Below are positions 41,965 through 62,262 of a stretch of 64,000 bases of DNA, piece after piece (position 1 is the stretch's first letter; each line of letters opens with the position of its first letter). The position numbers and the translations under genes are program-made. The DNA lies in the NCBI GenBank assembly GCA_900104565.1, contig LT629951.1:401501-465500 (forward strand). The letters run 5' to 3'. A model generated the notes under the pieces. That model ran no database searches, had not been told where the DNA came from, and saw nothing but the letters and a program-made list of their open reading frames with translations. Source of the stretch: Ruminococcaceae bacterium Marseille-P2935 (GTDB lineage Bacteria > Bacillota > Clostridia > Oscillospirales > Ruminococcaceae).

Positions 41965-42032
41965 TGAAAGCGCCTTAATAAGCAGAAGAAGACCGCTTAT
42001 TTGCAATAATTACAAAACTAGGAGGAAGAAAA

Positions 42033-43220: not shown

Positions 43221-43235
43221 TAACGGATTCAAATT

Positions 43236-43277
43236 GTGAGCCAGAGCCCTGCTGGGCTCTCGCTCACACTGTTTTTT
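43236..43277 (+). terminator. Strong hairpin after the first sugar-binding gene
   Basis: GTGAGC-C-AGAGCCC (43236-43249) pairs with GGGCTCT-C-GCTCAC (43254-43267) around TGCT, and six Ts follow at 43272-43277. It is probably a partial terminator that lowers readthrough to the ATPase. Confidence 0.85.
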
Positions 43278-43768: not shown

Positions 43769-43780
43769 GAGGTGAGTGGA

Positions 43781-45280: not shown

Positions 45281-45297
45281 CATTAGGAGGCGGAGTT

Positions 45298-46257: not shown

Positions 46258-46272
46258 CCCGGGAGGAACCAT

Positions 46273-47202
46273 ATGCTGGACATCATTGGAATCGGCGATG
46301 CCGATGTGGATATTATGATCCATGTGGATCATATCCCCTCTCATGACGAGAAGGTACGGGGCAGTCTGATGGGGCTGTTTCCCGGGGGGATCATTGCAAA
46401 TTTCTGCTGTGCTGCTTCTACTTTTGGGGCGAAGGCAGGTGCGGTGTGCAAGGTCGGGCAGGACTCCTATGGCCAGATTGCACTGCAGGACCTGAAGAAT
46501 CGCGGGGTGGATACTGCGGGCATGGTGGTTGAACCAGGTGCTCAAACCTATTTTTCGGTGGTCCATTTGGATAATACAGGGGAAAAAGCGCTTACGGTGG
46601 TGGTTACCTCGGGCTTTTTACCCAAAAAAGAAGATCTGGATTTTGAGTATATCCGTTCGGCAAAACGGGTACATATGACTACATTGGACTTGGACCTGGT
46701 TGATTTTGTGGGCCAAGCATTAAAGGGAAGCGACGTCAAGCTTTCGCTGGATATTGAGGGCACGGCCTCAAAGGCGGACTGGGAAACCTGGAAGAGGGTG
46801 CTCGGCTGCATCGATACTGCATTCCCCAACGAGGCGGGCCTGGCCGCACTGTGCAAGACTACGGATATTCAAAAAGGCGCCCAAATGCTTTTGAACTGCG
46901 GGGTTAAAACGGTAGTGGTAACCTGCGGAGCCAAAGGGGTGAAAATTTTTGAAAAGGGCGTTTCCTTTGAACACCCAATTTTCCCCGTAGAAGTCAAGGA
47001 CACGACAGGCGCCGGAGACTGCTTTAATGCGGTGTACTTATCCTGCCTCACCAAGGGCTGGCCTATGGAAAAGGCTGCAAAATATGCTTCAGCCGCTGCG
47101 GCTATTTCAGTATCCGCGGTAGGCTCCCGTACGGCCCAGCCCACCTTGCAGCAGGTGGAAACCTTTATTGCAGAAAGGGAGTTAGGAAGCCATGCGAATT
47201 GA
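46273..47202 (+). CDS. PfkB family carbohydrate kinase (second in window)
   Basis: A 309-residue ribokinase-fold enzyme. It has IIGIGDADVDIMIHVDHIP, the GGIIANFCCAASTFGAKAG substrate segment (FPGGI rather than the usual double-Gly plus Asn-Ala), TVVVTCGAKGVKIFE and the ATP/anion-hole motif DTTGAGDCFNAVYL with the catalytic Asp. The ATG follows GGGAGGAAC. It overlaps the deacetylase-like gene by 11 bases. It is the probable first cytoplasmic step: phosphorylation of the imported sugar or of ribose-like product. Confidence 0.92.
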   Translation: MLDIIGIGDADVDIMIHVDHIPSHDEKVRGSLMGLFPGGIIANFCCAASTFGAKAGAVCKVGQDSYGQIALQDLKNRGVDTAGMVVEPGAQTYFSVVHLDNTGEKALTVVVTSGFLPKKEDLDFEYIRSAKRVHMTTLDLDLVDFVGQALKGSDVKLSLDIEGTASKADWETWKRVLGCIDTAFPNEAGLAALCKTTDIQKGAQMLLNCGVKTVVVTCGAKGVKIFEKGVSFEHPIFPVEVKDTTGAGDCFNAVYLSCLTKGWPMEKAAKYASAAAAISVSAVGSRTAQPTLQQVETFIAERELGSHAN

Positions 47203-48649
47203 AACGGGTATTTACATTGGAAAGGAGCAGTCGGCAGCAGACGGGTGGAAGATTTTACTGGAGCAGGAAAAGACGCCGTTCCGGATTACAACAAAGCCCG
47301 ATTGCCCGGTCATTGTTTGTGAAAGAGATACCCCACCCTGGATGGAAGAATACTTAAAGGCTGGCGGCGTTATGATTGTTACAGGTGCACAGCCTGCCAG
47401 CCTGTGCTTTCCCGTCCAGTATGTGGGGGATGCTTCACTGGAAGAGGTTGATTTAGCAGATTTTGACCGGGGAAAAGCCAGAGTCCAGTCTATCTGCTCA
47501 ATCTTTGACGGTAAAGGCAGGGGAAAGCTTACCCTGCACGAAAAACGCCTGCCTAAGTTCGACATGCATCCGGATGAATTCCCGGTTGTGCTATTTGAAA
47601 AAATTGGTGACGGGGGGTGCTGGTACACCGGTGTTCCCATGTCGGCGCTTATTTCGGTGCTGGGTGATACTTTGCGGCAGACGGACTCCTTTTCTGATTT
47701 TAGTGAGCGGGTGGTTTCGGTCGACAAACATCATCTGCTGCATGTAATGCGCTGTTTGCTGGTAGACGCATTTACCAGGCAAGGGCTTCCTTATGTTCAT
47801 TTAGGTTACTATCCCGACCAGTATCAATCCCTTTTTGCTTTCCGGGTGGATGTGGATGGCATTTATGGCGAAAACCTGGAGCTGCTGAGCAAAGCAGGCA
47901 AAGAGAATGGGATACCCATCAGTTTTTATGTAAACCAGAAAATGTGTGAGCCTGAAGCAGAATGGCTCAATAAAATAGATCCGTTCCACGATATTGGCAA
48001 CCATGGGGTGCTGCACAATCTTTATACGTCGCTGGAAGATAACCGGCGCAACGTGGGGCAGTGCCGGGATTGGATGAACACAAAGGGTATAGAAAACGGC
48101 CCCTGGTATGTTGCTCCCAGGGGGATGTGGAACTTTAATCTTCACCGGGCATTGGCCGAAGAAGGGTATGAATTTACTTCTGATTTTGGCTTTTGCATCT
48201 TCGGGCTGCCCTTTTACCCTTATTTTAACGGGGAGAGGATGCAGGCTCTGCAAATTCCAATCAATCCGTTTTCAACCGAGCGGGCTTATGCCAAGGCAGA
48301 GGAAGAAAACGGCCAACTGCCCACAGCCCCATTTGTAGCGGATTATTTTATAAAGTCAGTGGAGGAGCAGTATACCCAGGGAATGCCAATTATTCTGTAC
48401 AGCCATCCCCAACGGTTTGGGCCGCTGTCCAGCCAGGTTTTCCCACAATTAAAAGCCAGGGTTGACTCGCTGAATATTTGGCAAACCACATTGCCGGAGA
48501 TTTACACCTGGTGGAGCCAGCGTGACGCAGTGCAATATTCCGCCGAATGGACAAGGGATAAACTTCAAATTCAGGGGGATATTCCTGAACATATGCAGGT
48601 TAAAACGATATTAGGCGTAGGCAGTGCGGCAAGGGGGTGCGCAGGGTGA
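47192..48649 (+). CDS. Polysaccharide deacetylase-fold (NodB-like) protein
   Basis: A 485-residue protein with an N-terminal part of about 200 residues of unknown fold (amidotransferase-like strand VMIVTGAQPASLC). A carbohydrate-esterase-4-like barrel follows: FRVDVDG (metal Asp), HDIGNHGVLHN (His-x3-His type metal pair), WYVAPRGMWN and IILYSHPQRFG. There is no signal peptide, so it works inside the cell. It may remove an acyl group or act on another C-N bond in the imported glycoside; the exact reaction is not predictable. It overlaps the kinase and the next gene (GTGA). Confidence 0.82.
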   Translation: MRIETGIYIGKEQSAADGWKILLEQEKTPFRITTKPDCPVIVCERDTPPWMEEYLKAGGVMIVTGAQPASLCFPVQYVGDASLEEVDLADFDRGKARVQSICSIFDGKGRGKLTLHEKRLPKFDMHPDEFPVVLFEKIGDGGCWYTGVPMSALISVLGDTLRQTDSFSDFSERVVSVDKHHLLHVMRCLLVDAFTRQGLPYVHLGYYPDQYQSLFAFRVDVDGIYGENLELLSKAGKENGIPISFYVNQKMCEPEAEWLNKIDPFHDIGNHGVLHNLYTSLEDNRRNVGQCRDWMNTKGIENGPWYVAPRGMWNFNLHRALAEEGYEFTSDFGFCIFGLPFYPYFNGERMQALQIPINPFSTERAYAKAEEENGQLPTAPFVADYFIKSVEEQYTQGMPIILYSHPQRFGPLSSQVFPQLKARVDSLNIWQTTLPEIYTWWSQRDAVQYSAEWTRDKLQIQGDIPEHMQVKTILGVGSAARGCAG

Positions 48650-49602
48650 ATGGGCCAAACCGGCAGGTGAAGCAGGCGCTTTCTGCTAAAGCGCAGGAAT
48701 GGTTTGAGGATGTTGCGACCCAGCGCGTTCTGGGGGCCACTGCACATATTAAGCTGATTTCGGATATGTTTTTAGACCTTTGCAACCGGGCGGATGCTAT
48801 GACAGGTGCCGAGCTGACGGATGGCATAATGGGTGTTGCAGAATATTTTATTTCAACCCGTGGAGAAGCCAGCCAGGCCATTACCAACGCGATTCGACTG
48901 ATGCTGGGAAAAATAGACAATTACAGGGAAGGCACAGGGATGCAGGCAGCGGAGTACCTGAGGGGAAGCATTGCGGGGTATCTGCAGCAGTCTGCCGGAA
49001 ATCTGCAAAAAATTAAAGAATATACCGGTAAAGTGATTGCAAAAATGAATACTGTGATGCTGTTTGATTATTCCAGCACGGTAAATTATATTGCAGACAT
49101 TGCCCACAGCCAAAACCAGGTGCTGAAGGTGCTGGTACCGCAAAGTATTGCCCTGGACGGCGGCAAGCCATACATCAAGCCATTCCGTGAAGCGGGGCAC
49201 AAAGTGCATTTTATTCCCGATGGGTCCCTTTATTATTACATACAACAATGCCAAGCGGCCTTTATAGGGTCAGAAACCTTTTACCCCAATGGAGACTGCT
49301 TTAATACGGTTGGAGCCGAAATGCTAGCTTTTCTTTGCACCCATTTTGAGGTTCCGTTTTATGTGATAACCCCGCTCATTAAGCTGGACCGGCGCGCACA
49401 ATATGGGTACCAAAAACCTCCCATTATGATTAATAATAAAGCCCGTATGGCCCGGGGGTTGGAGGAAGATATGATAGATGGGGTGGATTTTACCTGCCCG
49501 GAGCTGGTTCGTATTCCTGCGCGGGATATTACCGCCTATATCACCGAGAAGGGAATCATCCCCCCTGGGGGGATTTACGCAGAAAGCCTGAATTTTATTT
49601 AA
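48646..49602 (+). CDS. eIF2B-alpha-like protein (aldose-phosphate isomerase fold)
   Basis: A 318-residue protein of the IF-2B/MtnA/ribose-1,5-bisphosphate isomerase superfamily. Features are a helical N-terminal half, then TVMLFDYSSTVNYI, VLVPQSIALDGGKPY, CQAAFIGSETFYPNGDCFNTVGAEMLAFLCTHFEVPFYVIT (the conserved D/N-x-x-x-N-K-x-G-like segment) and the C-terminal AYITEKGIIPPGGIY, which matches iTE.G.i.P. The start is GTG 48646 with AAGGGG upstream, overlapping the previous stop by 4 bases. A bacterial sugar operon with PfkB plus an eIF2B-like enzyme recalls the ribose-1,5-bisphosphate route, but whether this one isomerises a sugar phosphate is an inference. Confidence 0.8.
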   Translation: MNGPNRQVKQALSAKAQEWFEDVATQRVLGATAHIKLISDMFLDLCNRADAMTGAELTDGIMGVAEYFISTRGEASQAITNAIRLMLGKIDNYREGTGMQAAEYLRGSIAGYLQQSAGNLQKIKEYTGKVIAKMNTVMLFDYSSTVNYIADIAHSQNQVLKVLVPQSIALDGGKPYIKPFREAGHKVHFIPDGSLYYYIQQCQAAFIGSETFYPNGDCFNTVGAEMLAFLCTHFEVPFYVITPLIKLDRRAQYGYQKPPIMINNKARMARGLEEDMIDGVDFTCPELVRIPARDITAYITEKGIIPPGGIYAESLNFI

Positions 49603-49863
49603 GCAGTTTTTAACGGAGGTTCGCGCCCTATGCACCCAGTGCCTGGGCTGAGACTGGATGGTGCTATGGGGTACCTGCTTTGCACCGAGCGCCAATACCT
49701 AAGCCCAATGGAAAGGTGTTTGCCTCTTCACCCCTTCGAAGAATTGGCAGATGCAGTTGCCAGCTAATCATTCCCCAAAAGGGTAGGTTGCGCTGTAAAA
49801 TTCCCGCTGGGAAAACAAGTGACATTTTTAGCACGATACTTTGAAAATAATGTTCCTTTTTGG

Positions 49864-49902
49864 AAAAACCTCTTTGGTATATTTGGCGCCAAAGAGGTTT
49901 TT
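49864..49902 (+). terminator. Terminator of the first sugar operon
   Basis: AAAAACCTCTTTGG (49864-49877) pairs with CCAAAGAGGTTTTT (49889-49902), a 14-bp perfect stem with an 11-base loop and a T-rich end, 262 bases after the eIF2B-like gene. The rest of 49603-50153 holds no gene. Confidence 0.88.
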
Positions 49903-50153
49903 CTTTGTCCTTCTTTATTGTACCGGAGGAAAGGAGTCCTTGTATGGCACGCAGCCTGTGTAAGAACCTTTCCCATCCAAAATGATTGATGCATAACAAT
50001 TTGCGGCTTTTATAATATGGGATTTTCATTTTATAGAACAATAACATGAAAAATGAATAGTTTTGGCTCCGTTAACAATACAAATACCGAATAGAATCCG
50101 TTGTGAATCCTGCTCTTTTAATTGCTTGTCCTTATAAAAAATATAAAAATATA

Positions 50154-50182
50154 TTGACTTGATTCGTAGATATAAATAGAAT
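50154..50182 (+). promoter_or_regulatory. Promoter of the amidotransferase-like gene
   Basis: TTGACT (50154-50159), 17 bases, TAGAAT (50177-50182), about 90 bases before the GTG start. Confidence 0.75.
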
Positions 50183-50271
50183 GAGACAAATCTTTGCAAC
50201 ACTGGCAAAGAAAAAAACATTTATGAGGACTGACACATAGTACATTTCATTATTTGAAGGAGGAAACAATT

Positions 50272-51015
50272 GTGGGAAAGAAAGTTTTGATTGCTGGGGA
50301 ATCATGGATGAGTTATACCACACATGTAAAAGGATTTGACAGCTTTTATACATCTGTTTATGAAGAGGGCGTCGAATACCTGCGCAATGCTTTAAAACTG
50401 GCTGGCTATGAGGTTACCTTTATTCCAAACCACTTAGCACCTGTAAACTTCCCTTTTACCATGGAGGAACTGGCAGAGTATAGCTGCGTAATTCTTTCCG
50501 ACATTGGTTCCAACACCCTGCTGCTGCCTCCGGAAACCTTTGCAAAAAGTATAAAACGCCCCAACCGCTGTCAGTTAATACGGGACTATGTGTTACAGGG
50601 CGGTGCATTTTTAATGGTTGGCGGATATATGTCCTTTACTGGTATTGATGCAAAGTCAAGATATGGCCAAACCGCTATACAAGATATTTTACCGGTACGC
50701 TGTATTGCAGTAGATGACAGAATGGAGCACCCAGAAGGGGTGGTGCCTGTAACAATAGCAGATCACGATGCATTAAGAGGCTTGCCTCAACAATGGCCAG
50801 CCTTTTTAGGCTACAATAAAACCGAGGTGATTCCGCAGGGCCAAGTATTGGCCACTATTGATGGTGATCCGTTTATTGCAGTGGGTGAATTTGGCAAAGG
50901 AAAGGCTGCTGCCTTTACATCAGACTGCGCACCACACTGGGGACCACAGGAATTTGTGGAGTGGGAGTATTATAATACCCTTTGGAAGGGGTTATTGGAT
51001 TTTTTAACGAAGTAA
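50272..51015 (+). CDS. Glutamine amidotransferase-like protein (DUF1355 family), probably non-catalytic
   Basis: A 247-residue cytoplasmic protein in the class-I amidotransferase/ThuA-like fold (DUF1355, PF07090). It starts KKVLIAGESWMSYTTHVKGFDSF, has AEYSCVILSDIGSNTLLL, then GGAFLMVGGYMSFTG at the place of the nucleophile elbow, and ends GEFGKGKAAAFTSDCAPHWGP. The elbow reads GGYMS, so the catalytic Cys of true amidotransferases is absent; the family is thought to bind or modify sugars instead. The start is GTG 50272 with AAGGAGG 8 bases before. It has its own promoter and precedes the GntR-ADP-ribosylglycohydrolase operon. Confidence 0.85.
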   Translation: MGKKVLIAGESWMSYTTHVKGFDSFYTSVYEEGVEYLRNALKLAGYEVTFIPNHLAPVNFPFTMEELAEYSCVILSDIGSNTLLLPPETFAKSIKRPNRCQLIRDYVLQGGAFLMVGGYMSFTGIDAKSRYGQTAIQDILPVRCIAVDDRMEHPEGVVPVTIADHDALRGLPQQWPAFLGYNKTEVIPQGQVLATIDGDPFIAVGEFGKGKAAAFTSDCAPHWGPQEFVEWEYYNTLWKGLLDFLTK

Positions 51016-51061: not shown

Positions 51062-51151
51062 CAATGCTGTTTAATGGAAGAATGTAATAACAGTGATGCA
51101 TATGCATAACAATAGTTATATTTTTCAACGGTTAAACAGCATTGCTTTTTT
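51062..51151 (+). terminator. Long-loop hairpin after the amidotransferase-like gene
   Basis: CAATGCTGTTTAA (51062-51074) pairs exactly with TTAAACAGCATTG (51132-51144), then CTTTTTTG. The 57-base loop holds one copy of the palindrome ATGCATATGCAT. A 15-mer similar to CCCTTTTAAACAAT is directly repeated just before it. Confidence 0.65.
51096..51107. promoter_or_regulatory. Palindrome ATGCATATGCAT, distal copy
   Basis: An exact 12-bp palindrome preceded by G. The identical G plus palindrome occurs 231 bases downstream at 51327-51338. It is a candidate operator for the GntR-type fusion regulator. Confidence 0.55.
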
Positions 51152-51255: not shown

Positions 51256-51338
51256 TTTTTGACAAATTTGTCAAAAAGTTGTTGACTTTGTGACTGAAGA
51301 GACGGTAGTATTAATTTGTGATAAAGATGCATATGCAT
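51256..51338 (+). promoter_or_regulatory. Promoter and operators of the GntR-glycohydrolase fusion gene
   Basis: A 22-bp perfect palindrome (51256-51277, centre GACAAATTTGTC) lies directly before TTGACT (51282-51287), an 18-base spacer and TAGTAT (51306-51311). The second ATGCATATGCAT (51327-51338) falls just after the expected transcript start, about 50 bases before the ATG. This is a typical layout for an autoregulated repressor gene. Confidence 0.65.
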
Positions 51339-51388: not shown

Positions 51389-53167
51389 ATGACCAAGTCT
51401 ACAGGTTCTCGCCCAGTCTATATGGAGATATATTATAAAATTATTGACGATATTATGAACGGGGTTTACAACATTGGTGATTTGATTCCTACTCAAAACG
51501 AACTGGCTGTTCAGTTTAATGTCAGCCGGGTCACGGTGCGTGAGGCTATTAAGGAGCTCATGCACCGCGGGGTTTTGCAGACAATAAAAGGCAAGGGAAC
51601 CTTTGTAACCACCAAGCCGGGTGAAATCGGCAACTATGAGCGCACAGGGGGATTTTCTAAAAACAGGGTTAGCAGCCTGGGGCGCAGGGTGCGTTCACGT
51701 ATTGTAGATATTGAAGTTGTTCCGGCAGATAAGCGTTTAAGCGCCAAGCTTAGGGTGCCGCCCTTCACATTGCTTACCCATATTTGCCGTGTGCGCATGG
51801 TAAACGACAAGCCAATGTGCCGGGATAATGTATACATAGTAAACCGCTACGTGAAAAACATAGATTTCTACAAGGAAGATTTAGTGAATGGGTCGCTTTA
51901 CTCTTTACTCAAAGAGAAAGCCGGAATCATCTTTGATTTTGTAGAAGAAAAAATTCGTGCTGTGGATTGTCCCGAAGATGTAGCGAAAAACCTGGAGATT
52001 AACCCAGGGGAGCCGGTGCTGAATATTAAACGAACTTCCTATGACGAGTTTGGAAAGCCCATCGAATATTGTGAAAATTATGAGCGGTCAGACCTTTACT
52101 ATATGGTGATTCAATCGCGCAGAAGCGGAAAGAAGGAAATATCACCCCAAAAATACGATAAAATTTTTGGAAGTATTTTAGGCGCTGCAGTCGGCGACGC
52201 TATGGGGGCCGTAACCGAAACCAAAACAACGGCTTTGATTAGGAAAAAATTTGGAGGTCTGGTGGAAGACCTTTTACCCCCGCCGGATGATTGTTATGTT
52301 CGCGGAAGAGAAACCGGCAGTGTGACGGATGATTTTAGCTTAGCTTATTTTACGGCGATTGAACTGAACAAGTGTAAGGGCAATGTAACCGAACAGGTAG
52401 CGGTTAACTCGGTGCTTACCTGGTCCGAGTACCCGGAGTTTTTCCGGCTGGCGGGCAGTACCACACAAGAAGCAGTGCTGAAGCTGAAAGGAGAACCGAT
52501 ACCAAGCAAAAATGAGTACCTGGCATGCAATAATGCCAAAGCTACCAACGGCGCAGCCATGAAAATCTTCCCCGTAGGTTTAATTAATCCAGGCAATATT
52601 GAAAAGACCGTACAGGATACTGTGACCATATGTAAACCCACTCATCCCTATAATATTACCATTTCGGCGGGAGCTGCAATTGCAGCTGCTGTTGCTACAG
52701 CGGTGGAGGATGGTGCAACTTTAGACCAGGTACTTCAGGCAGGGATTGAGGGCGCAAAACTTGGATTCCTGGAAGGGACCAAACAATGCAAAAGACTGGC
52801 AGGCCCGTCTGTAGAAAAACGAATTAGACTGGCGATAGAGATTGCGGAGCGGCGGCTTGGATGGGAAGATACTATGAAAGAGCTGTCTGACATTATTGGT
52901 ACCGGGCATTCGGTTGCAGAAGCTGTTCCGTGTGCATTTGGAATTTTGGCTGCAAACCCGGATAACGCAATGGGGGCAGTTAAAATGGGGGTAAACATTG
53001 GTGGGGACACCGATACTGTAGCTACAATGGTTGGGGCAATGGCTGGTGCACTTTATGGGGCAAGGTCGTTTCCGCCGCATTTTCTGGAAATTATTAATCG
53101 AGCCAACGGCTTTGATTTGGAGCGGATCGCCCATGATATTGCTACGGAATATTACGGAAACGCTTAG
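51389..53167 (+). CDS. GntR/UTRA regulator fused to an ADP-ribosylglycohydrolase-fold domain
   Basis: One unbroken frame of 592 codons. Residues 1-75 are a GntR winged helix (PVYMEIYYKIIDDIMNGVY, NELAVQFNVSRVTVREAIKELM, IKGKGTFVTT). Residues about 90-245 are a UTRA ligand-binding domain (THICRVRMVNDKPMCRDNVY, NIKRTSYDEFGKPIEYCENY). Residues about 255-590 form a complete ADP-ribosylglycohydrolase fold: KIFGSILGAAVGDAMGA, the metal motif TDDFSLAYF and GGDTDTVATMVGA, so the two-metal site is intact. The ATG follows ATAGGAG. The following gene is a close paralogue of the C-terminal half. It may bind DNA, sense a ribosylated ligand and hydrolyse it. Such a fusion is unusual; whether the domain is active is unknown. 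Confidence 0.93.
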   Translation: MTKSTGSRPVYMEIYYKIIDDIMNGVYNIGDLIPTQNELAVQFNVSRVTVREAIKELMHRGVLQTIKGKGTFVTTKPGEIGNYERTGGFSKNRVSSLGRRVRSRIVDIEVVPADKRLSAKLRVPPFTLLTHICRVRMVNDKPMCRDNVYIVNRYVKNIDFYKEDLVNGSLYSLLKEKAGIIFDFVEEKIRAVDCPEDVAKNLEINPGEPVLNIKRTSYDEFGKPIEYCENYERSDLYYMVIQSRRSGKKEISPQKYDKIFGSILGAAVGDAMGAVTETKTTALIRKKFGGLVEDLLPPPDDCYVRGRETGSVTDDFSLAYFTAIELNKCKGNVTEQVAVNSVLTWSEYPEFFRLAGSTTQEAVLKLKGEPIPSKNEYLACNNAKATNGAAMKIFPVGLINPGNIEKTVQDTVTICKPTHPYNITISAGAAIAAAVATAVEDGATLDQVLQAGIEGAKLGFLEGTKQCKRLAGPSVEKRIRLAIEIAERRLGWEDTMKELSDIIGTGHSVAEAVPCAFGILAANPDNAMGAVKMGVNIGGDTDTVATMVGAMAGALYGARSFPPHFLEIINRANGFDLERIAHDIATEYYGNA

Positions 53168-53206: not shown

Positions 53207-54223
53207 ATGGAAAAGTATGACAAGGTATTTGGCAGTATTTTAGGCGCTGCAGTCGGCGACGCTATGGGAGGTATTACCGAAACAAGAAGTGCTGAAATGA
53301 TTAAGGATTTCTTTCATGGCTATGTGGATGATTTAATCACTCCTCCAGATGATTGTTTTATTCGTGGCTGCCAGCCCGGTAATGTGACAGACGATTTTAG
53401 CCTGGCATATTTTACGGCAATTGAGCTGTCGAGGTGCGCCGGAAAAGTGGACAACAACCTGGCTAAAAAAGCAGTGCTGACCTGGTCTGAATACCCGGAG
53501 TTTTTCCGGTTTGCCGGCCCCACTACACAAGCTGCAGTTATGAGAATGAAAGGCATCGACGTTCCGTATAAAAACGCATACCTTGCCTGTGATAATATGA
53601 AGGCTACCAATGGTTCCGGTATGAAAATTTTTGGCGTTGGCCTGATTAATCCGGGTAACCTGGACAAAGCGGTAGAGGATGCGGTAACCATCTGTATGCC
53701 GACTCATCCCAACAATGTGGCAATTTCGGGTGCTTGCGCAATAGCGGCGGCAGTGGCAAAGGCTATGGAGGATGATGCCACTCTGGATGATGTGATCGAT
53801 GCCGGTCTGTATGGAGCGCATAAGGGGTTTATTATTGGATCCAAAAAAGGTTTTTCCCTGGCTACCCCATCAGTAGAAAAGAGAATGCGCCTTGCTGTTG
53901 AAATTGGTAAACGCGGCATGGGATGGGAAGAGACCATGCTGGAATTAAGAGATATTATTGGAGCAGGCCTGGCAGCAGCCGAAGCAATTCCTTGTGTGTT
54001 TGGTATTCTGGCTGCCAACCCGAATGATGCATTTGGAGCAATTAAGATGGGTGTCAACATTGGCGACGATACCGATACGGTTGCAACCATGGTAGGCGCA
54101 ATTGTGGGCGCTTTATATGGTACCAGCAACATTCCTCTTAAATTCTTAAAGCCAATTAACGAGGTAAATAAATTCGACTTAGAGCGGCTAGCTCATGATA
54201 TTACAGGAGCATATTACGCATGA
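53207..54223 (+). CDS. ADP-ribosylglycohydrolase family protein, free-standing
   Basis: A 338-residue all-helical hydrolase of the ARH/DraG/crystallin-J1 family. Metal-binding motifs are GAAVGDAMG (residues about 11-19), VTDDFSLAYF (about 63) and GDDTDTVATMVGA (about 285). It also carries TWSEYPEFFRFAG and MPTHPNNVAISGACA. Family members break N- or O-ribosyl bonds; bacterial homologues in sugar loci probably act on small ribosides, not on proteins. It is very similar along its whole length to the C-terminal part of the preceding fusion protein. The ATG follows AGGAGGA. It overlaps the next kinase by 4 bases. Confidence 0.93.
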   Translation: MEKYDKVFGSILGAAVGDAMGGITETRSAEMIKDFFHGYVDDLITPPDDCFIRGCQPGNVTDDFSLAYFTAIELSRCAGKVDNNLAKKAVLTWSEYPEFFRFAGPTTQAAVMRMKGIDVPYKNAYLACDNMKATNGSGMKIFGVGLINPGNLDKAVEDAVTICMPTHPNNVAISGACAIAAAVAKAMEDDATLDDVIDAGLYGAHKGFIIGSKKGFSLATPSVEKRMRLAVEIGKRGMGWEETMLELRDIIGAGLAAAEAIPCVFGILAANPNDAFGAIKMGVNIGDDTDTVATMVGAIVGALYGTSNIPLKFLKPINEVNKFDLERLAHDITGAYYA

Positions 54224-55140
54224 AAAAAGAAAAATATGTTGTTGCAGTTGGCCCGGTTTGCATTGATGAATATTACAGTGCGGATGCTTGGGTAGCAGAA
54301 GGAGACAAAGGGGTTGTACGCCCCGAAACCAATACCGTTGGCGGAATGATTCCCAATGCGGCTTGTGTATTTGCAGGATATGGGGTAAAAACATATTTTT
54401 TTGATGTGATGAATGACGGCCCGCTTTCCCAGCAGATGCTGCAAAATTTGCGGGAATATCACCTGGATGTTTCCCCCGTGTATTTTGACAATACCATGTC
54501 CGATTCCAAATGTATTATTGTGCTTACGCCTGGGGACCGGACGATTCTGGTTGCCAACAGCAATAAACCCAGTGTAAAGCTGTCTGGAGAAAGGTTGGAA
54601 CTGTTCCGTGGGGCGTCGTATATCTACACTACCGTAGGGGATTTTGCGGGTTTTCAGGATGCTGTGGAATTAGCCGATGACCTAAAAGCCCATGGCGTAC
54701 AGTTGGTTTTTGATATTGAACGATCAAATTTTGATAAAACCGGCGAAGAACTGTTTAAAAGAGCGGATGTCCTCTTCTTTAACCAGTACGGTTTTGAAAA
54801 ATACTGTGATGGAGAGAATGCTCAAGCGGTTTATCAGCGTCTGTTCGACTGGGGGGTTAAAATTATTACCGTTACATTGGGTAAAGACGGCAGCTATACA
54901 AAAACCCCAACGGATGAAGCAAGAGCTTATGCTATTGACCTGCCGGTTGTGGACCCCACTGGAGCAGGTGATACCTTTAACAGCTCGTTTGTACGCTGCA
55001 TTTTAGAAGGAATGGATATTCATAAGGCGGCGGAATTCGCCAACATGGCCGCCAGCTATTCGGTAACTCAGATGGGACCTAAAGGTGGGGTCAGCAGCGT
55101 AGAACATATTGAAGAAATGCTAAAACAGCATTGTAAGTAA
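54220..55140 (+). CDS. PfkB family carbohydrate kinase (third in window)
   Basis: A 306-residue ribokinase-like enzyme: VVAVGPVCIDEYYSAD, the NTVGGMIPNAACVFAGYG substrate motif, TVTLGKDGSYTKTP and the catalytic DPTGAGDTFNSSF. The N-terminal Gly-Gly-x-x-x-N pattern is that of ribokinase and nucleoside kinases. The start overlaps the stop of the glycohydrolase gene (ATGA), tying the two in expression; phosphorylation of the released sugar, perhaps ribose, is the natural guess. It lies 73 bases before the transporter ATPase. Confidence 0.93.
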   Translation: MKKEKYVVAVGPVCIDEYYSADAWVAEGDKGVVRPETNTVGGMIPNAACVFAGYGVKTYFFDVMNDGPLSQQMLQNLREYHLDVSPVYFDNTMSDSKCIIVLTPGDRTILVANSNKPSVKLSGERLELFRGASYIYTTVGDFAGFQDAVELADDLKAHGVQLVFDIERSNFDKTGEELFKRADVLFFNQYGFEKYCDGENAQAVYQRLFDWGVKIITVTLGKDGSYTKTPTDEARAYAIDLPVVDPTGAGDTFNSSFVRCILEGMDIHKAAEFANMAASYSVTQMGPKGGVSSVEHIEEMLKQHCK

Positions 55141-55212
55141 TTTGGTAGTAACAATACACCCTTTTATCTAACATGAAATGAACGGCAAATTGTAAATTAG
55201 GGGGGAACAGCA

Positions 55213-56724
55213 ATGTCAGCAGAACCGATTTTAAGGACCAGCAAAATCACCAAAGGCTTTTTTGGGGTTCAGGTGCTTAAGGGGATCGATTTTGAGGTTT
55301 GTCCGGGCGAAATTATGGGCTTGGTTGGTGAAAATGGCGCCGGAAAATCTACCCTGATGAAAATTATTACCGGCCTCTATACCAATGATGGGGGCGAGAT
55401 TATTTTTAAAGGGGCGCCGGTGTTCTTCAGTGATCCGGGTAAGGCAAGAGATATTGGAATTTCGATTATCCATCAGGAATTCAACTTGTTTTCCAATCTT
55501 TCGGTCGCTGAAAATATCTTTTTGGACCGTAAGGAGTTCCGCAACAGGCTGGGGCAGGTAAACTGGAAAAAAATGAACGAGGAAGCCCGTAAGGTATTGA
55601 GTGAACTGGGCGCCAGTTTTGACGTTACCATGCCGGTGCGGATGCTTTCGGTACGGGAACAGCAGCTGGTGGAAATTGCAAAGGCAGTTTCGACCAATGC
55701 GCAGGTTCTGATTATGGATGAACCGTCCGCGGCGCTTCCGGATAACGAAGTGCAGAATATGTTTGATGTAGTGCGCATGCTGAAACAAAAAGGCGTTGCA
55801 ATCATTTATATTTCTCACAGAATGGGGGAGATTGAACAGATTTGTGACCGTGTAACTGTGCTGCGAGATGGTATCAACGTTGATGTGCTGGATATGAAGA
55901 CCAGAAAGATTGACGATGTAATCGCGCAGATGGTAGGACGTGAAATTAAGGATTATTACCCCCATACCAGTCGTGAACCGGGTGACGAGATTTTAAAAGT
56001 GGAAGAGATGTCCGGGGATGGGCTCAAGAATATCAGTTTCACGGTGAATCGCAAAGAGGTTGTAGGTTTATATGGTTTAGCCGGTGCGGGATCAACAGAA
56101 GTGGCTGAAATGATTATGGGCCTGCGGCTGATGCCAAGCGGTACCGTATTGATGAATGGTGAACCGGTTAAGAAAAATGCAATAGAGGCTTCCATGGCTG
56201 CCGGTATTGGCTATGTGCCGCCCGACCGGCGTCAGGAGGGTATTGTTGTAAACATGCCCATTGCGGACAACATCATTATGGCCAATCTTCCCAAGTACAT
56301 AAAAAAGGGCTTGCTGGACTTTAAAAAGATTGCTGCCAGCACGGCAGAGCATATTAAGGAGCTCGCACTAAAATGCAACGGGGCAGATCAAACGGTTCTT
56401 AGCCTGTCGGGAGGCAACCAGCAAAAGGTGGTTTTGTCCAAATGGTTGGACCGTAACCCCAGCATGCTGATATTAAACGAGCCGACCCGTGGTGTAGACG
56501 TAGGTGCAAAAAGTGAAATCTACCGTTTAATTGATGAACTGGCAAACTCCGGACTTGCTATTTTACTTATTTCCTCCGAGGTACCCGAGGTGTTAGGCAT
56601 CAGCGACCGTGTTCTGGTTATGTGTCGCGGCCGAATTACAGGCGAATATAAAAACGAAAACCTAGGGCAGGATGTTCTGCTGAAGGCGGCGTCTGGTACT
56701 ACAGGGGGTGACGGCAATGAATAA
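55213..56724 (+). CDS. Sugar ABC transporter ATPase, duplicated domain (second CUT2-type system)
   Basis: A 503-residue ATPase. Domain 1 has Walker A GENGAGKSTLMKIITG, IHQEFNLFSNLSVAENIFL, signature LSVREQQLVEIAKAV and Walker B LIMDEPSAALPDNE. Domain 2 has a degenerate Walker A (GLAGAGSTEVAEM), LSGGNQQKVVLSKWL and LILNEPTRGVDVGAK. This is the standard RbsA/MglA pattern. The ATG follows TAGGGGGGAA. It overlaps the first permease by 8 bases. It is clearly distinct from the ATPase at 43781. Confidence 0.94.
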   Translation: MSAEPILRTSKITKGFFGVQVLKGIDFEVCPGEIMGLVGENGAGKSTLMKIITGLYTNDGGEIIFKGAPVFFSDPGKARDIGISIIHQEFNLFSNLSVAENIFLDRKEFRNRLGQVNWKKMNEEARKVLSELGASFDVTMPVRMLSVREQQLVEIAKAVSTNAQVLIMDEPSAALPDNEVQNMFDVVRMLKQKGVAIIYISHRMGEIEQICDRVTVLRDGINVDVLDMKTRKIDDVIAQMVGREIKDYYPHTSREPGDEILKVEEMSGDGLKNISFTVNRKEVVGLYGLAGAGSTEVAEMIMGLRLMPSGTVLMNGEPVKKNAIEASMAAGIGYVPPDRRQEGIVVNMPIADNIIMANLPKYIKKGLLDFKKIAASTAEHIKELALKCNGADQTVLSLSGGNQQKVVLSKWLDRNPSMLILNEPTRGVDVGAKSEIYRLIDELANSGLAILLISSEVPEVLGISDRVLVMCRGRITGEYKNENLGQDVLLKAASGTTGGDGNE

Positions 56725-57682
56725 ACTTTCTGTTCAAAAATTCTTAAAACGACAGGAAACGATTATTTCAGTTTTTACCTTATTGGTCTTTTTTGCCTTT
56801 TGTATGCTTTCTCAAAATTTTGGAACAGACTCTAACTTTCAGTTGATTTTACAACAGGTTGCGGTCAACGGCATCTGTGTGGTTGGCGTTGGCGTGGTAG
56901 TCATTTTAGGCGGTATTGACCTGTCTGCCGGTGCTGTGCTTGCTTTGTCGGGCGTAGTTGGCGGCATGTTTATCAAACAGGGAATGCCTGTACTGGTTGC
57001 AATACTTGCCAGTATTGGAATTGGTATGCTGTGTGGGGCCTTTAACGCCCTGCTCATTACGCAGCTAAGCCTTCCCCCGATTATTACCACCCTGGCAACC
57101 AACTACCTGTTCCGTGGGGTAGCCATTATTATTACCGGAGGTTCCTGGGTAAATAATTTCCCAAGAGAATTTACCAAATACGGCACAGGGCGGATATTTG
57201 GTACCTCGAATGTATTTTGGATGTTTCTGATCATTCTCGCCATAGTTTCTTACATGATGAAGTACATGAATATTGGACGTAAGATTTATGCGGTAGGAAC
57301 CAATAATGATGCGGCAGACAAAAGCGGCATTAGCTGCACAAAGGTTAAGTTTTTTGGATATACATTGTGCGGCGGAATTATTGGGTTTGCGGGTATTATG
57401 TATGCAGCGCAGATCGGTGCGGTCGCATCCACCTCTACCGGCCTTACTTTGGGTACGCAGGTGCTGGCGGCAGCATTGGCCGGCGGTATCTCTATTGCAG
57501 GGGGCAGGGGTACCCTGTTTGGTGCTTCGGTTGGTATTTTAATGATTGGAATTATTAAAAACGGCCTGATCCTCACCAAGGTTTCAGAGTTCTGGATTGA
57601 TGCGATCACCGGAGCCATTATTTTGCTGGCGCTGGCACTGAACGTTCTCAACTCCCGTGAAAAGAGAAGGGAGGAAGCATAA
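56717..57682 (+). CDS. Sugar ABC transporter permease (second system, first subunit)
   Basis: A 321-residue membrane protein with CUT2 permease marks: GVVVILGGIDLSAGAVLALSGVVGG, CGAFNALLITQLSLPPIITTLATNYLFRG, GRKIYAVGTNNDAADKSGI and GGISIAGGRGTLFGASVGILMIGII. The start chosen is ATG 56717, 8 bases after GGGGG; an in-frame GTG at 56708 lies within that ribosome site. It overlaps the ATPase gene by 8 bases and the next permease by one base (TAATG). Confidence 0.93.
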   Translation: MNKLSVQKFLKRQETIISVFTLLVFFAFCMLSQNFGTDSNFQLILQQVAVNGICVVGVGVVVILGGIDLSAGAVLALSGVVGGMFIKQGMPVLVAILASIGIGMLCGAFNALLITQLSLPPIITTLATNYLFRGVAIIITGGSWVNNFPREFTKYGTGRIFGTSNVFWMFLIILAIVSYMMKYMNIGRKIYAVGTNNDAADKSGISCTKVKFFGYTLCGGIIGFAGIMYAAQIGAVASTSTGLTLGTQVLAAALAGGISIAGGRGTLFGASVGILMIGIIKNGLILTKVSEFWIDAITGAIILLALALNVLNSREKRREEA

Positions 57683-58641
57683 TGAGCAAGGTTAAAAACT
57701 GTATTTCATCCTACATGAAAAGGGATGGAAACCGTAATGTAGTATTGCTAATTGCCTTTATGGCCGTGCAGATCCTGTTTTTTTCGCAGGTCACCGAATA
57801 TTTCCTTGGCATTTCTAATTTTGTCAACCTGATGCGCCAGACGGCAGAGTTGGGTATGGTCACCATTCCGCTGGCAATGCTGATTCTTACCGGAAACATT
57901 GACCTCTCGGTAGGTGCAGTAATGGGAGTATGCGCTATCTCCCTGGCCAGAATGCTCCGTGCAGGCATGAATATAGGGTTGTCTATTTTAATTACCCTGT
58001 GTATTGGCGCTTTAATGGGCTGCATCAACGGCTTTTTTGTAGCAAAGCTTCACCTGGCAGGTATTGTAGCGACAATTGGTACCCAGGTAATGCTGCGCGG
58101 CGCATGTTTCATTTTGACAGGCGGGCGTCCAGTCAGCGGATTACCAAAAGAGTTTTTAGATGTAGCAAAATGGAACTTGTTTGGCATTCCGTTTACCTTT
58201 ATTTTAATGATAGCAGCATTTGTAATTGCAATTTTTATTATGCAGCGTACCAGCTTTGGGATTAAACTGCATGCAATAGGCTACAACGCCAAGGCCAGTA
58301 AATTTTCGGGAATTCAATCCGATAAATTGAAATTTTGGCTTTATGTTTTAAGCGGTACAGTAGCGGCAATTGCCGCCACGTTTATGCTTACCCGCTTTGC
58401 AAGTGCAGAATCGGCATTTGGAACCGGATACGATACCGACGTACTGACTTCGGTACTGATTGGCGGTATGAGTATTGCAGGCGGCTCGGGCAACCTACTG
58501 GGGGCCCTGTTGGGAGTACTGACCATTGGTACCCTGAGAAACGGCATGAACCATTTGGAAATTTCCGCCCTGTATCAGCAGATGGTGCTTGGCGCACTGA
58601 TTGTAATTTCCGCAGCAAAATGGAGAAAATACAAGGCATAA
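57682..58641 (+). CDS. Sugar ABC transporter permease (second system, second subunit)
   Basis: A 319-residue membrane protein with LTGNIDLSVGAVMGVCAISLARM, GCINGFFVAKLHLAGIVATIGTQVMLRG, FGIKLHAIGYNAKASKFSGI and GGMSIAGGSGNLLGALLGVLTIGTLRN. It pairs with the preceding permease as a heterodimer, like the AI-2 importer LsrC/LsrD or rhamnose RhaP/RhaQ type. The start overlaps the previous stop by one base. It is followed 40 bases later by the binding protein. Confidence 0.93.
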   Translation: MSKVKNCISSYMKRDGNRNVVLLIAFMAVQILFFSQVTEYFLGISNFVNLMRQTAELGMVTIPLAMLILTGNIDLSVGAVMGVCAISLARMLRAGMNIGLSILITLCIGALMGCINGFFVAKLHLAGIVATIGTQVMLRGACFILTGGRPVSGLPKEFLDVAKWNLFGIPFTFILMIAAFVIAIFIMQRTSFGIKLHAIGYNAKASKFSGIQSDKLKFWLYVLSGTVAAIAATFMLTRFASAESAFGTGYDTDVLTSVLIGGMSIAGGSGNLLGALLGVLTIGTLRNGMNHLEISALYQQMVLGALIVISAAKWRKYKA

Positions 58642-58681: not shown

Positions 58682-59746
58682 ATGAAGTTAAAAAAGGTAT
58701 TAGCACTCGTTCTTGCACTGACAATGATCATGGCGTTTGCGGGCTGCAGCGGCAATACGCCTTCCAGCACCCCTGCGTCTACTGCTGGTGGGGGTACTGA
58801 ATCAAAAGGCGAAACGCCTACTCCGGCAGGTGGAAAATCGTTATTCATCTGCCCGAAATCGGTTGGATTTGACTATTGGACTGCCTGTGAAAAAGGCGTA
58901 AAAGATGCAGCTGCAGCGTTGGGTTACACCGCAGTTTTCAATGGACCTTCTGAGGTTGATTCTGCCAAACAAATCAATATGATCGAAGACATGCTGACCA
59001 AGAAAATCTCTGGCCTGGCTGCCGCCCCTAATGATGCAGCGGCAGTTGGCCCCGTGTTTGACCGTGCCATTGAGCAGGGCGTAAACACCATTACATTTGA
59101 TACTGACGCGCCTACTACCAACCGTTCCTGGTATGTTGGACCGGATTCCGACTACTCCATGGGCCAGCAGATTGCTGAAATGATTGCAGAGGAAATGGGC
59201 GGCGAAGGTGAACTGGCATTCATGGTAGCTTCTTTGGGCGCCGAGAACCAGGTAGCTAAAGTTGAGGGTGCAAAAGCCGTATTGGAGTCCAAATACCCGA
59301 AAATTTCTATCGTTACCACTGTTGTTTCTGACGACGACAACCAGAAAGCTTTTGCAAACGCACAGAACCTGCTGTCTACCTACCCGAACCTGAAAGGCAT
59401 TCTGGGCTTTGCAGGCGCCGAGGCCCCGCAGGCTGCCGAGGCGGTTACCCAGGCAATTGCCAATGGTGATGTAAAAGAAGGCCAGATTAAAATTACTGGA
59501 ATCGGCTTCCCATCCCAGTGCAGGCCTTATGTGAAGAGCGGTATTTTGAAACAGGTCCTCAGCTGGAATCCGGAGGTTATGGGTATTGTAACAGTACACG
59601 TGCTGGCCGCAATGGAAGAAGGCAGACCGATTGATTCTACCTTTAAGATTGACGGCGTAGAAGGCCTGAAGATTGAAGATAAGAACGTTTACTCCGGCTG
59701 CCTGGTATTAGATATTAATAACATCGACCAGTACAATTATTCCTGA
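58682..59746 (+). CDS. Sugar ABC transporter binding lipoprotein (second system)
   Basis: A 354-residue lipoprotein: MKLKKVLALVLALTMIMAF then lipobox FAGC (Cys about residue 22) and a Ser/Thr/Pro/Gly linker. The mature domain is of the RhaS/LsrB/ribose-binding type: FICPKSVGFDYWTACEKGVKDAA, ISGLAAAPNDAAAVGPVFDRAIEQGVNTITFDTDAP, SWYVGPDSDYSMGQQIAEM, IGFPSQCRPYVKSGIL and EVMGIVTVHVLAAMEEG. The resemblance to LsrB suggests a branched or deoxy sugar ligand, but the true substrate is unknown. The ATG follows AAGGAGG. It is the last transporter gene. Confidence 0.93.
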   Translation: MKLKKVLALVLALTMIMAFAGCSGNTPSSTPASTAGGGTESKGETPTPAGGKSLFICPKSVGFDYWTACEKGVKDAAAALGYTAVFNGPSEVDSAKQINMIEDMLTKKISGLAAAPNDAAAVGPVFDRAIEQGVNTITFDTDAPTTNRSWYVGPDSDYSMGQQIAEMIAEEMGGEGELAFMVASLGAENQVAKVEGAKAVLESKYPKISIVTTVVSDDDNQKAFANAQNLLSTYPNLKGILGFAGAEAPQAAEAVTQAIANGDVKEGQIKITGIGFPSQCRPYVKSGILKQVLSWNPEVMGIVTVHVLAAMEEGRPIDSTFKIDGVEGLKIEDKNVYSGCLVLDINNIDQYNYS

Positions 59747-59906
59747 TCATAATTTCCTCCTGATATTCAGGAAACAGACCTAGAGACCAACAGCGGCGTG
59801 CGGATTGCAATTTTGATTGACGGGCTTTACAGACCGGCTAGGAAGGGTAGTCTGTTGCGCCGCCATTGGTTTTCTTACATCATCACGAAGAAAGAGGTGC
59901 TTCAGT

Positions 59907-60389
59907 ATGAGACAAATTAAGGCAGTACCCATCACAAAAGAAGGCTTTGCTCCGTTTGGAAGATATTATAATCTTTATGAGGGGCGTAGTACAAAAACCG
60001 AAGACTTTGAGGCTTATATGCTGAATGAGCTGCATGTGGATGAGCCTATGAATTTTGGCATTACCATCTGTAAGGCTGGGGATTTTGACAGTGTTAGCAT
60101 GGAGCGTCACTTTTTGACCGAAGAGCCGCAGTTCTGCGGGGACGGCACCATGGTGCTTACCGTAGCAAATACCGACCCGGAACATTACCCTGCCGCTGAG
60201 GATGTACAGGCATTCATTTTAAAGCCAGGCGATTTGGCGGTGCTGGCTAAAGGAATCTGGCATGACGCCAATCATGGCATAGAGAAAGACACTATGTATT
60301 ATTTTATGGCTACCAATAAAGCTCCAGATTCCCGCGAGACCGAATGGATCGAGATTAAGCCAGAACCAGTAAGAGTTTTAGTAAAATAA
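59907..60389 (+). CDS. Ureidoglycolate lyase-like cupin (AllA family), first copy
   Basis: A 160-residue cupin beginning MRQIKAVPITKEGFAPFGRYYNLYEG. It has FGITICKAGDFDSVSMERHFLTEEPQFC, where the metal-binding His/Glu are expected, and FILKPGDLAVLAKGIWHDANHG. This is the full length of the ureidoglycolate lyase family (PF04115), which in purine breakdown frees urea from ureidoglycolate. No other allantoin genes are near, so a related ureido or sugar-acid substrate is more likely. The start is ATG 59907 after AAAGAGGTG; the longer frame from 59817 lacks a site. A second copy follows 28 bases later. Confidence 0.85.
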   Translation: MRQIKAVPITKEGFAPFGRYYNLYEGRSTKTEDFEAYMLNELHVDEPMNFGITICKAGDFDSVSMERHFLTEEPQFCGDGTMVLTVANTDPEHYPAAEDVQAFILKPGDLAVLAKGIWHDANHGIEKDTMYYFMATNKAPDSRETEWIEIKPEPVRVLVK

Positions 60390-60417
60390 CGGCGAAGCGG
60401 CAGAAAGGATGAACGAA

Positions 60418-60894
60418 ATGACAATAAAAGCTATGCCTGTAACAGAGGAAAACTTCAAACGCTTTGGCGTTTATACCAAAGTAATCAAAGGCGAAGGCCG
60501 CACCGGAGCAGGTGGTTGGCGTGCCTGGATGACCCCGGATGTAGCGATGGACCAGGTTGCTCATTTTGGTATGACAAAGGTAGCGGGAATGCCCTTTGAA
60601 GTAGATAAAATGGAACGGCATACCAAGACCAAAGAACTGCTGATTTGCGGAGATAAACCCATGGTATTGGCGCTGGCTGATACGGACCCCATGTCCAGCG
60701 GCGCAAAGGCTGAGGATATTGCGGCGTTTTTGATTCAGCCCGGAGAATTTGTGGTGATTGACAAAGGTATTTGGCATGACGCCTGCCGCAGTGCACAAGG
60801 GGATGGATGCTACTATTACTTCCTCTCTTTAGAGACCGATGAAAAGGCAGTATTTACCGATATTATCGGAGAGCCGGTTCGGGTTGAGCTATAA
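60418..60894 (+). CDS. Ureidoglycolate lyase-like cupin (AllA family), second copy
   Basis: A 158-residue paralogue beginning MTIKAMPVTEENFKRFGVYTKV, with FGMTKVAGMPFEVDKMERHTKTKELLIC and FLIQPGEFVVIDKGIWHDACRS. Aligned by eye, both MERH and GIWHD motifs match copy one. The start ATG 60418 has AAAGGA 8 bases upstream and matches the length of copy one; ATG 60409 lies within the site. Two different paralogues in a row suggest a heteromer or two substrates of one pathway. Confidence 0.85.
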   Translation: MTIKAMPVTEENFKRFGVYTKVIKGEGRTGAGGWRAWMTPDVAMDQVAHFGMTKVAGMPFEVDKMERHTKTKELLICGDKPMVLALADTDPMSSGAKAEDIAAFLIQPGEFVVIDKGIWHDACRSAQGDGCYYYFLSLETDEKAVFTDIIGEPVRVEL

Positions 60895-60948: not shown

Positions 60949-62262
60949 CTGGCGGACAATTTAAACCGGGTGAATCAGTGGATTGACCAGAATCGCTCAG
61001 ACATCATCCGTTTTTTGGCGGATATGGTGAGAATTCCAAGCGTTAATCCGTGGTTTAGCAATTATGACCCTTATACGACTGAAAAAGAGGTTCAGGAGTT
61101 TATTGCAGGTTCGTTAAAAGAAATGAACTTTGATGTAGATATATGGGAAGTGGATGCAGAAAAATTAAAAGAGTTTAAAGGCATGCCCGGGTATTACGAG
61201 AGCAGGCCAATGAAAGACCGCCCTATCCTGTGCGGCCGGCTCAAAGGCTCGGGCGGCGGGCATTCCCTGCTGCTTACCGGCCATGCTGATGTGGTAACCC
61301 AGGGGGATGGCTGGACAAAAAGGGCTTTTTCTGCAGAAATTGAAGATGGGAAAATGTACGGTCGGGGTACTGTGGATATGAAGGGCGGAATTGCAGCCAT
61401 GATTATGGCAGTAAAAGCGATTCAGCAATGTAATATTCAATTAAAAGGAGATGTACTGGTAGGTACCGTACCAGACGAAGAAGCCGGAGGCATGGGCACT
61501 CTGGATTTTGTTCATCAGAGATGCTGTAAGGCAGATGGAGCAATTATGACCGAGCCAACCTCTTTAGAGATTGGCCCAATGTGCCGGGGCATTTTGTGGG
61601 GTAAAATTGTCATTCCAGCACGTGCCGGCCATATTGAAATGTATCAGGGGCATTTTCATGAAGGCGGGGCGGTGGACGCGGTCAAGCTGACCCAGCTGTT
61701 CCTGGCCCAAATTGATCAATTTAACCGTAACTGGTCCAGTAAAAAAGTACATCCTTTACTGCCTATGCCCTGCCAGATTTTAGTTGCCCAGATTAAGGCT
61801 GGTGAATATCCGTCTGCGTTTGCGGGCAGCGCTGAAATTTATTTTGACGCACAGTACCTGCCTGCGGACCTAGATGAAAAGCACCGCGGCAGTAAAATTA
61901 AAAAAGAAATTGAAGAGTTTGTTGCCGCGGTGGCACAGACCGATGAATGGATGCGTGAAAACCCGCCCTATGTGGAGTGGCTGTTAGACGCCGATTGCGC
62001 CGAAACGCCGGTGGATTCTTCTTTTGTTACTACTTTGATTGATGCAGCGAAGAAAGTATCGGACCAGATTAAAGTTTCGGGGGTAGGGTCTCATACTGAC
62101 ATGGGCTGGTATGTACACAGCGGAATTCCTACCGTTAATTTTGGACCCGGTAACCCAAAAATTGCACACCAGGCCAATGAGTATATTGAGCTGGATGAAT
62201 ACATACAAGGCGTAAAATTAATGGCGTCCATGATTATGGACTGGTGTGAAGTTACAAAATAA
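60949..62262 (+). CDS. M20 family amidohydrolase/peptidase (ArgE/DapE-like)
   Basis: A zinc hydrolase of about 437 residues. Metal and catalytic motifs are LLTGHADVV, YGRGTVDMKGGIAAMIMAVKA, VPDEEAGGMGT and MTEPT in order, and GVGSHTDMGWYVHSGIPTVNFGPGNPKIAHQANEYI at the end. Between them lies the lid/dimer domain. The family removes acyl groups from amino acids or hydrolyses ureido and carbamoyl compounds. The start chosen is CTG 60949, with GGGAGG 8 bases before and the peptide beginning LADNLNRVNQW; an in-frame GTG at 60970 has no site. It closes the operon and probably processes the freed aglycone. Confidence 0.88.
   Translation: MADNLNRVNQWIDQNRSDIIRFLADMVRIPSVNPWFSNYDPYTTEKEVQEFIAGSLKEMNFDVDIWEVDAEKLKEFKGMPGYYESRPMKDRPILCGRLKGSGGGHSLLLTGHADVVTQGDGWTKRAFSAEIEDGKMYGRGTVDMKGGIAAMIMAVKAIQQCNIQLKGDVLVGTVPDEEAGGMGTLDFVHQRCCKADGAIMTEPTSLEIGPMCRGILWGKIVIPARAGHIEMYQGHFHEGGAVDAVKLTQLFLAQIDQFNRNWSSKKVHPLLPMPCQILVAQIKAGEYPSAFAGSAEIYFDAQYLPADLDEKHRGSKIKKEIEEFVAAVAQTDEWMRENPPYVEWLLDADCAETPVDSSFVTTLIDAAKKVSDQIKVSGVGSHTDMGWYVHSGIPTVNFGPGNPKIAHQANEYIELDEYIQGVKLMASMIMDWCEVTK

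Follow-up and report, generated by a model that had tools for sequence, protein, structure and literature searches.

The fusion gene and its neighbourhood

The window analysed here is a 64,000-nucleotide stretch of contig LT629951.1 of Ruminococcaceae bacterium Marseille-P2935. It carries a gene in which a GntR/UTRA transcription regulator continues, in the same frame, into an ADP-ribosylglycohydrolase (ARH) domain (Table 1). The frame opens with the ATG at 51389, closes with the stop codon at 53165–53167, and holds no internal stop or shift in its 592 codons. The Pfam match of the ARH part is full length, covering positions 1–287 of 287 of the PF03747 profile (residues 261–564, E 2e-53). The original prediction had described one 592-codon frame joining GntR, UTRA and a complete ARH, with neither stop nor shift in the linker. 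Both points hold: the frame and the Pfam matches agree with the first, and the second is backed by the open frame and by the same architecture in four orthologues from other genomes, which also rules out a chance read-through. That a stop codon was removed by an assembly error is extremely unlikely; we found no point in its favor, and the four other genomes include the complete one of [Clostridium] asparagiforme DSM 15981.

In the structure model both halves of the protein are confident, residues 237–247 of the linker are disordered, and a pTM of 0.64 leaves the relative orientation of the domains loose. The UTRA half matches the effector domains of DasR, YvoA and PhnF (Z 20–22). The ARH half is matched over its whole length, at Z 37.9 to MJ1187 (1t5j) and ∼35 to ARH3 and DraG. 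The winged helix and UTRA are common to YvoA (NagR), DasR and the window protein (∼28% identity), but YvoA and DasR are proteins of ∼240 aa that end after UTRA, without an enzyme domain. The two-domain HutC/UTRA plan likewise ends there (∼240 aa), whereas the window protein adds a domain of 340 residues; its membership of the HutC/UTRA subfamily therefore holds for the N-terminal half only. DraG, ARH1, ARH3 and MJ1187 share the full fold and metal ligands with the window ARH, but we found no GntR/UTRA regulator on any solved member. A PADLOC search returned no defence-system match.

Seven residues of the ARH were checked, all either ligands of the two metals or part of the Glu flap, as assigned by alignment to ARH3. 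All seven are kept in the window protein (E277, T313, D314, D315, D540, D542 and T543). The GDAMG, TDDF and GGDTDT motifs are also present, as the original prediction had stated.

Table 1. Features of the fusion locus, in window coordinates
Feature	Position	Strand	Remarks
Operator-like palindrome ATGCATATGCAT, copy 1	51096..51107		predicted
Perfect 22-bp palindrome TTTTTGACAAATTTGTCAAAAA	51256..51277		just 5' of promoter-like site
Promoter-like TTGACT-18-TAGTAT	51282..51311	+	9/12 consensus positions
Operator-like palindrome ATGCATATGCAT, copy 2	51327..51338		predicted; between promoter-like site and start codon
GntR-UTRA-ARH fusion gene	51389..53167	+	592 aa; AlphaFold model mean pLDDT 88.6
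GntR winged-helix domain	51419..51607	+	residues 11–73; Pfam PF00392, E 1.1e-19, above cut-off
UTRA effector domain	51677..52099	+	residues 97–237; PF07702 positions 2–140 of 141, E 2e-34
Flexible linker	52097..52147	+	residues 237–253; pLDDT <50 at 237–247
ARH domain	52148..53155	+	residues 254–589
E277	52217..52219	+	counterpart of ARH3 Glu-flap residue E41
T313-D314-D315 metal ligands	52325..52333	+	by alignment
D540-T-D542-T543 metal ligands	53006..53017	+	by alignment
Stand-alone ARH paralogue (ARH2)	53207..54223	+	338 aa; catalytic residues intact
PfkB-family sugar kinase	54220..55140	+	Pfam; 4-base overlap with ARH2 end
RbsA-like sugar ABC transporter ATPase	55213..56724	+	
Ribose-type ABC permease 1	56708..57682	+	
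Ribose-type ABC permease 2	57682..58641	+	
Sugar-binding protein	58682..59746	+	Peripla_BP_4; nearest RhaS/LsrB types
Ureidoglycolate-lyase-like protein 1	59817..60389	+	below NCBIfam cut-offs
Ureidoglycolate-lyase-like protein 2	60409..60894	+	below NCBIfam cut-offs
M20 ArgE/DapE-family deacylase	60970..62262	+	

The genes from the fusion through the M20 deacylase all run on the plus strand and are closely spaced, and the fusion gene looks like the head of a single operon that imports and degrades a glycoside. The original prediction covered neither ARH2 nor the operon nor the candidate operators. The gene that follows it encodes ARH2, which is 65% identical to the fused ARH and starts 39 bases 3' of the fusion gene. 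The ARH would release a sugar and the PfkB kinase would phosphorylate it. Ureidoglycolate-lyase-like genes accompany ARH and PfkB not only here (59817–60894) but elsewhere too (L095, 5769–6951; L096), and these companions may point to a ureido- or amide-linked riboside as the substrate. Directly 5' of the fusion locus is a second sugar operon (41227–51015), with its own GntR/UTRA-like regulator, a sugar-binding protein, an ABC transporter, a PfkB kinase, a polysaccharide-deacetylase-like protein, an IF-2B/ribose-1,5-bisphosphate-isomerase-like protein and a PF07090 protein.

The closest parallel in gene content that we considered is E. coli YegW (GgaR), which represses only yegTUV (transporter, ARH and kinase) from two nearby sites and whose effector is reported as ADP-glucose (PMC10819704). 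The window likewise has a GntR-family regulator, a transporter, an ARH and a PfkB kinase (53207–58641), and two close sites are predicted (see below). The two systems differ in that regulator and ARH are separate proteins in E. coli and one chain here, and in that YegT is a single-gene transporter in place of the ABC transporter found here. Identity to the corresponding halves of the window protein is 24% for YegW and 27% for YegU. In the GntR tree YegW sits on a long branch, weakly placed, with no firm grouping with the fused clade described next.

Fused relatives and origin of the fusion

Among ∼1,640 sampled genomes (36 of the same family, with order, class and phylum samples and 397 genomes of family f52), the fusion was absent from all but the window's own. 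A scan of GTDB r220 contigs gave no match with a single-protein query, but an ARH alignment query gave 80 listed loci, of 387 related contigs. Four of these 80 are fused single frames: in an uncultured organism (L087, 598 aa), Bacterium 1XD8-76 (L088, 598 aa), a Lachnospiraceae MAG (L089, 593 aa) and C. asparagiforme DSM 15981, whose genome is complete (L094, 517 aa). The domain order that the original prediction sought in related genomes is thus missing from the 36 same-family genomes and the order sample, yet present in four Lachnospiraceae-type Clostridia, and its absence from close relatives does not count against the fusion as had been supposed. A search of the open-access literature found no description of a GntR-ARH fusion. 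Its components, and the general principle of an enzyme domain serving as sensor, are already known, and the fusion is a variant. An apparent ARH-PfkB fusion at another locus (L097) was ruled out, as PfkB alone was recognised in that ORF.

In L087–L089 the fusion gene is followed by ARH2, PfkB and an RbsA-like ATPase; in C. asparagiforme an ORF similar to the ureidoglycolate-lyase-like proteins is placed between the fusion and ARH2. An intact ARH lies downstream of the fused gene in all five fused genomes, two of which are near-identical.

In the GntR tree the regulator parts of all five fusions group together as one clade (support 100/100), adjoining Bacillota GntR genes that are located directly 5' of ARH genes. 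The fused ARH domains also form one group, adjoining the ARH2 clade, although its long branches make this grouping weaker (SH-aLRT 83), and another sequence is nearer to the fused domain of C. asparagiforme than its own ARH2 is. A simple history would comprise neighbouring GntR and ARH genes, a tandem duplication of the ARH gene, and joining of the upstream copy to the regulator. Several unfused GntR and ARH neighbours are in the same frame and separated by one stop codon, with 24-base gaps in Angelakisella (L090, TGA) and Diplocloster (L091, TAA) and 3-base gaps in L067 (TAG) and in Burkholderia and Mesorhizobium (L044/L045, TGA), so that loss of a single stop would suffice for fusion. The linker in the window contains AAGGAA ∼7 bases 5' of the position of the lost ARH start, possibly a relic of its ribosome-binding site, though this is suggestive only.

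A GntR gene directly 5' of an ARH gene was noted in several GntR lineages (L044, L045, L067, L120 and L201) spanning alpha-, beta- and gammaproteobacteria and Bacillota; some of these pairs are in-frame and 3 bases apart.

Fate of the fused enzyme domain

Stand-alone ARHs mostly keep the seven catalytic residues (7/7 in 109 of 130). By contrast, all four fused relatives have lost six of these residues and retain just one apiece. L087–L089 have TEAF for TDDF and ETNI or ETSV for DTDT, with the flap glutamate changed to K and a conserved histidine to C. The C. asparagiforme domain has an SGE motif and lacks ∼80 residues. We infer that the fused ARH is catalytically dead in all four. Judging from the title of entry 6d3a, metal and ADP-ribose can stay bound in human ARH3 despite a single D-to-E change.

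The dead domain is nonetheless under purifying selection, with dN/dS ∼0.09, as measured in L087–L089. Between L088 and L089, where dS is near saturation, dN/dS was 0.087 for the dead ARH, close to the values of active ARH2 (0.069) and PfkB (0.092), and lower in the regulator half (0.026); for the dead domain in the close pair L087–L088 it was 0.118. The domain stays open over 333 codons, as none of 2000 base shuffles did, and its predicted structure is still an ARH fold (Z ∼36 to ARH3). Taken together, the residues lost in four relatives, the intact ARH downstream and the purifying selection indicate that catalysis is not what retains the domain. Its likeliest role is ligand sensing, or else a structural one tied to the regulator. 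In C. asparagiforme it may be merely structural, given the ∼80 ARH residues lost there.

These data also bear on the possibility of a neutral fusion, in which loss of one stop merged two neighbouring genes of the same frame and each half goes on working on its own. The frequency of unfused in-frame neighbours with one intervening stop comports with this, as do two complete domains on a flexible linker. But a dead enzyme that worked independently of the regulator should decay or vanish, and the relatives' ARH, dead by motif in 4 of 4, is conserved where that could be measured (L087–L089). We regard neutral fusion as quite unlikely.

Close in principle are NrtR and BtAraR, in which a catalytically impaired Nudix hydrolase domain joined to a DNA-binding domain is the sensor (PMC4666351). 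They share with the fused proteins a DNA-binding domain and a hydrolase-derived domain, and the impaired catalytic motif has its like in the four fused relatives. The enzyme fold and DNA-binding family are different, however, and the proteins described here have a complete UTRA in addition. No Nudix domain was matched in the window protein by Pfam; an ARH is in that place, and its catalytic motif is intact, unlike that of NrtR and BtAraR. By analogy, the conserved role of the fused ARH would probably be that of a sensor, in the manner of those Nudix domains.

The window protein is the sole one of the five fused members that is catalytically competent by motif. Relative-rate tests found the fused domains of L088 and L094 strongly accelerated (P <1e-4), but no significant rate difference between the window ARH and ARH2 (P 0.10–0.90 over six outgroups). 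By residues and rate, then, this appears to be the one sampled fused member whose ARH both looks and evolves enzyme-like. The original prediction offered two roles for the domain, an extra ligand sensor or a sensor degrading its own inducer. As the conserved role the former gains, with catalytic residues lost in 4 of 5 fused proteins and the domain under selection, and the latter loses; inducer destruction is still viable for the window protein itself, because its residues are intact and it has not accelerated relative to ARH2.

The window ARH could accordingly be active and the protein a trigger enzyme, with inducer turnover resetting repression, or with DNA binding governed by active-site occupancy, for which PutA and BirA are models. 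Besides its seven kept residues and its ARH2-like rate, unlike the accelerated L088 and L094 domains, there is precedent in E. coli enzymes with acquired DNA-binding domains (BirA, NadR, PepA, PutA and PyrH; PMC8249747). PutA, BirA and NadR likewise combine enzyme and DNA-binding domains in one chain (PMC8249747), the activity in our case being predicted from residues, but their enzymes are unrelated to ARH, and 4 of 5 fused proteins here have lost the catalytic residues. The sampled sister lineages lost those residues yet kept the fusion. Self-catalysis is not needed either, since an intact hydrolase is encoded next door. Single-target regulators can moreover be scarce (∼20 molecules per cell for GgaR; PMC10819704), too few to clear much inducer. 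We consider a trigger enzyme possible but doubtful.

Alternatively, the fused ARH might pair with ARH2, or with product-bound ARH2, so that what the regulator senses is how much enzyme there is, or its state, and not the small molecule. This is conceivable because catalytically deficient ARHs recur beside intact ones, and an intact ARH is downstream of every fused gene. However, a compact, globular shape is described for ARH proteins (PMC7050489), and a co-evolving pair is made less plausible by C. asparagiforme, whose ARH2 is not nearest to its fused domain. Such partner sensing seems unlikely.

Candidate operators and a proposed mechanism

The 2,674,277-base genome contains exactly two copies of the palindrome ATGCATATGCAT, both intergenic and directly 5' of the fusion gene. 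A reversed control pattern has no copy in the same genome, and with one mismatch allowed 0.34 matches are expected per window. In C. asparagiforme (6.4 Mb) the sole exact copy is ∼60 bp 5' of the fused gene, inside a 12-of-12 promoter match, in the spacer that separates the –35 from the –10 hexamer, and a copy with one mismatch follows 34 bp further on. The motif was not found 5' of the fused genes of L087, L088 and L089. The recognition helix of these three differs (SRTTIREA vs SRVTVREA), which could explain the missing motif.

From these near-unique sites in front of the gene we predict an autoregulated repressor with a single target. The promoter-like site between the two copies is weak evidence, because such sites are no more numerous than chance. 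The 22-bp palindrome TTTTTGACAAATTTGTCAAAAA, whose 18-base core TTTGACAAATTTGTCAAA has exactly one copy in the genome, was our first operator candidate; it was dropped for ATGCATATGCAT, as it had no match 5' of the relatives' fused genes. The two ATGCATATGCAT sites in the window are 231 bp apart, or 22.0 turns at 10.5 bp, a spacing that would be compatible with DNA looping.

The best reading, to which we give a probability of about 0.5, is an autorepressor of a single target with a second, enzyme-derived sensor domain. The window protein would be a HutC-type GntR one-component regulator and would repress the operon it belongs to through the ATGCATATGCAT sites 5' of the regulator gene. This operon would take up and degrade a compound that is ribose-linked or has a similar glycosidic bond. 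Its C-terminal ARH would bind ligand as a second sensing domain. The pocket would be the pathway hydrolase's own, acquired when the neighbouring ARH gene was duplicated and a copy fused to the regulator, and would report substrate to the DNA-binding domain. In the relatives, catalysis would have been lost and the pocket kept, which fits a sensing role; the window ARH, looking catalytically competent, may consume the ligand as well. Several points run counter to this reading: UTRA alone may do all the sensing; the window member, with all catalytic residues kept, does not itself show the loss of catalysis; the palindrome is missing in front of the L087–L089 fusions; the C. asparagiforme domain may have a structural role alone; and the fused genomes number five, with two of them near-identical.

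We propose tentatively, at odds a little short of even, that these proteins represent a new class of one-component repressor, in which a pathway ARH was captured as sensor behind a complete GntR/UTRA regulator and the present-day family still displays the steps. These steps would be adjacent in-frame genes, fusion with an intact site (the window protein), a dead site under selection, and a shrunken dead domain. How an enzyme turns into a sensor usually has to be pieced together from end points far apart; in this one small clade the fused enzyme domain exists in intact, inactivated and eroded forms, and a working enzyme accompanies each. The near-unique candidate operator makes the regulator testable, and the fusion would offer a way in to the substrate of the ARH-PfkB-transporter operons, which are widespread and include yegTUV of E. 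coli.

Metal-deficient ARHs were also noted among the stand-alone proteins. All 16 are in tandem ARH pairs, and 15 of the 16 are the downstream copy (locus and position L127:5066, L128:5004, L133:2203, L135:4912, L142:4833, L147:1691, L148:4016, L149:5067, L152:4953, L153:5035, L155:3873, L159:5042, L161:5014, L163:4356, L165:5100 and L166:4969). Their changes are recurrent, often TDA and ExSA, and the tandem arrangement of deficient with intact ARHs looks like a recurring active/inactive pair. In an Erysipelotrichaceae MAG (L144:3914–9233), five ARH genes stand in tandem, with a PfkB kinase gene after them.
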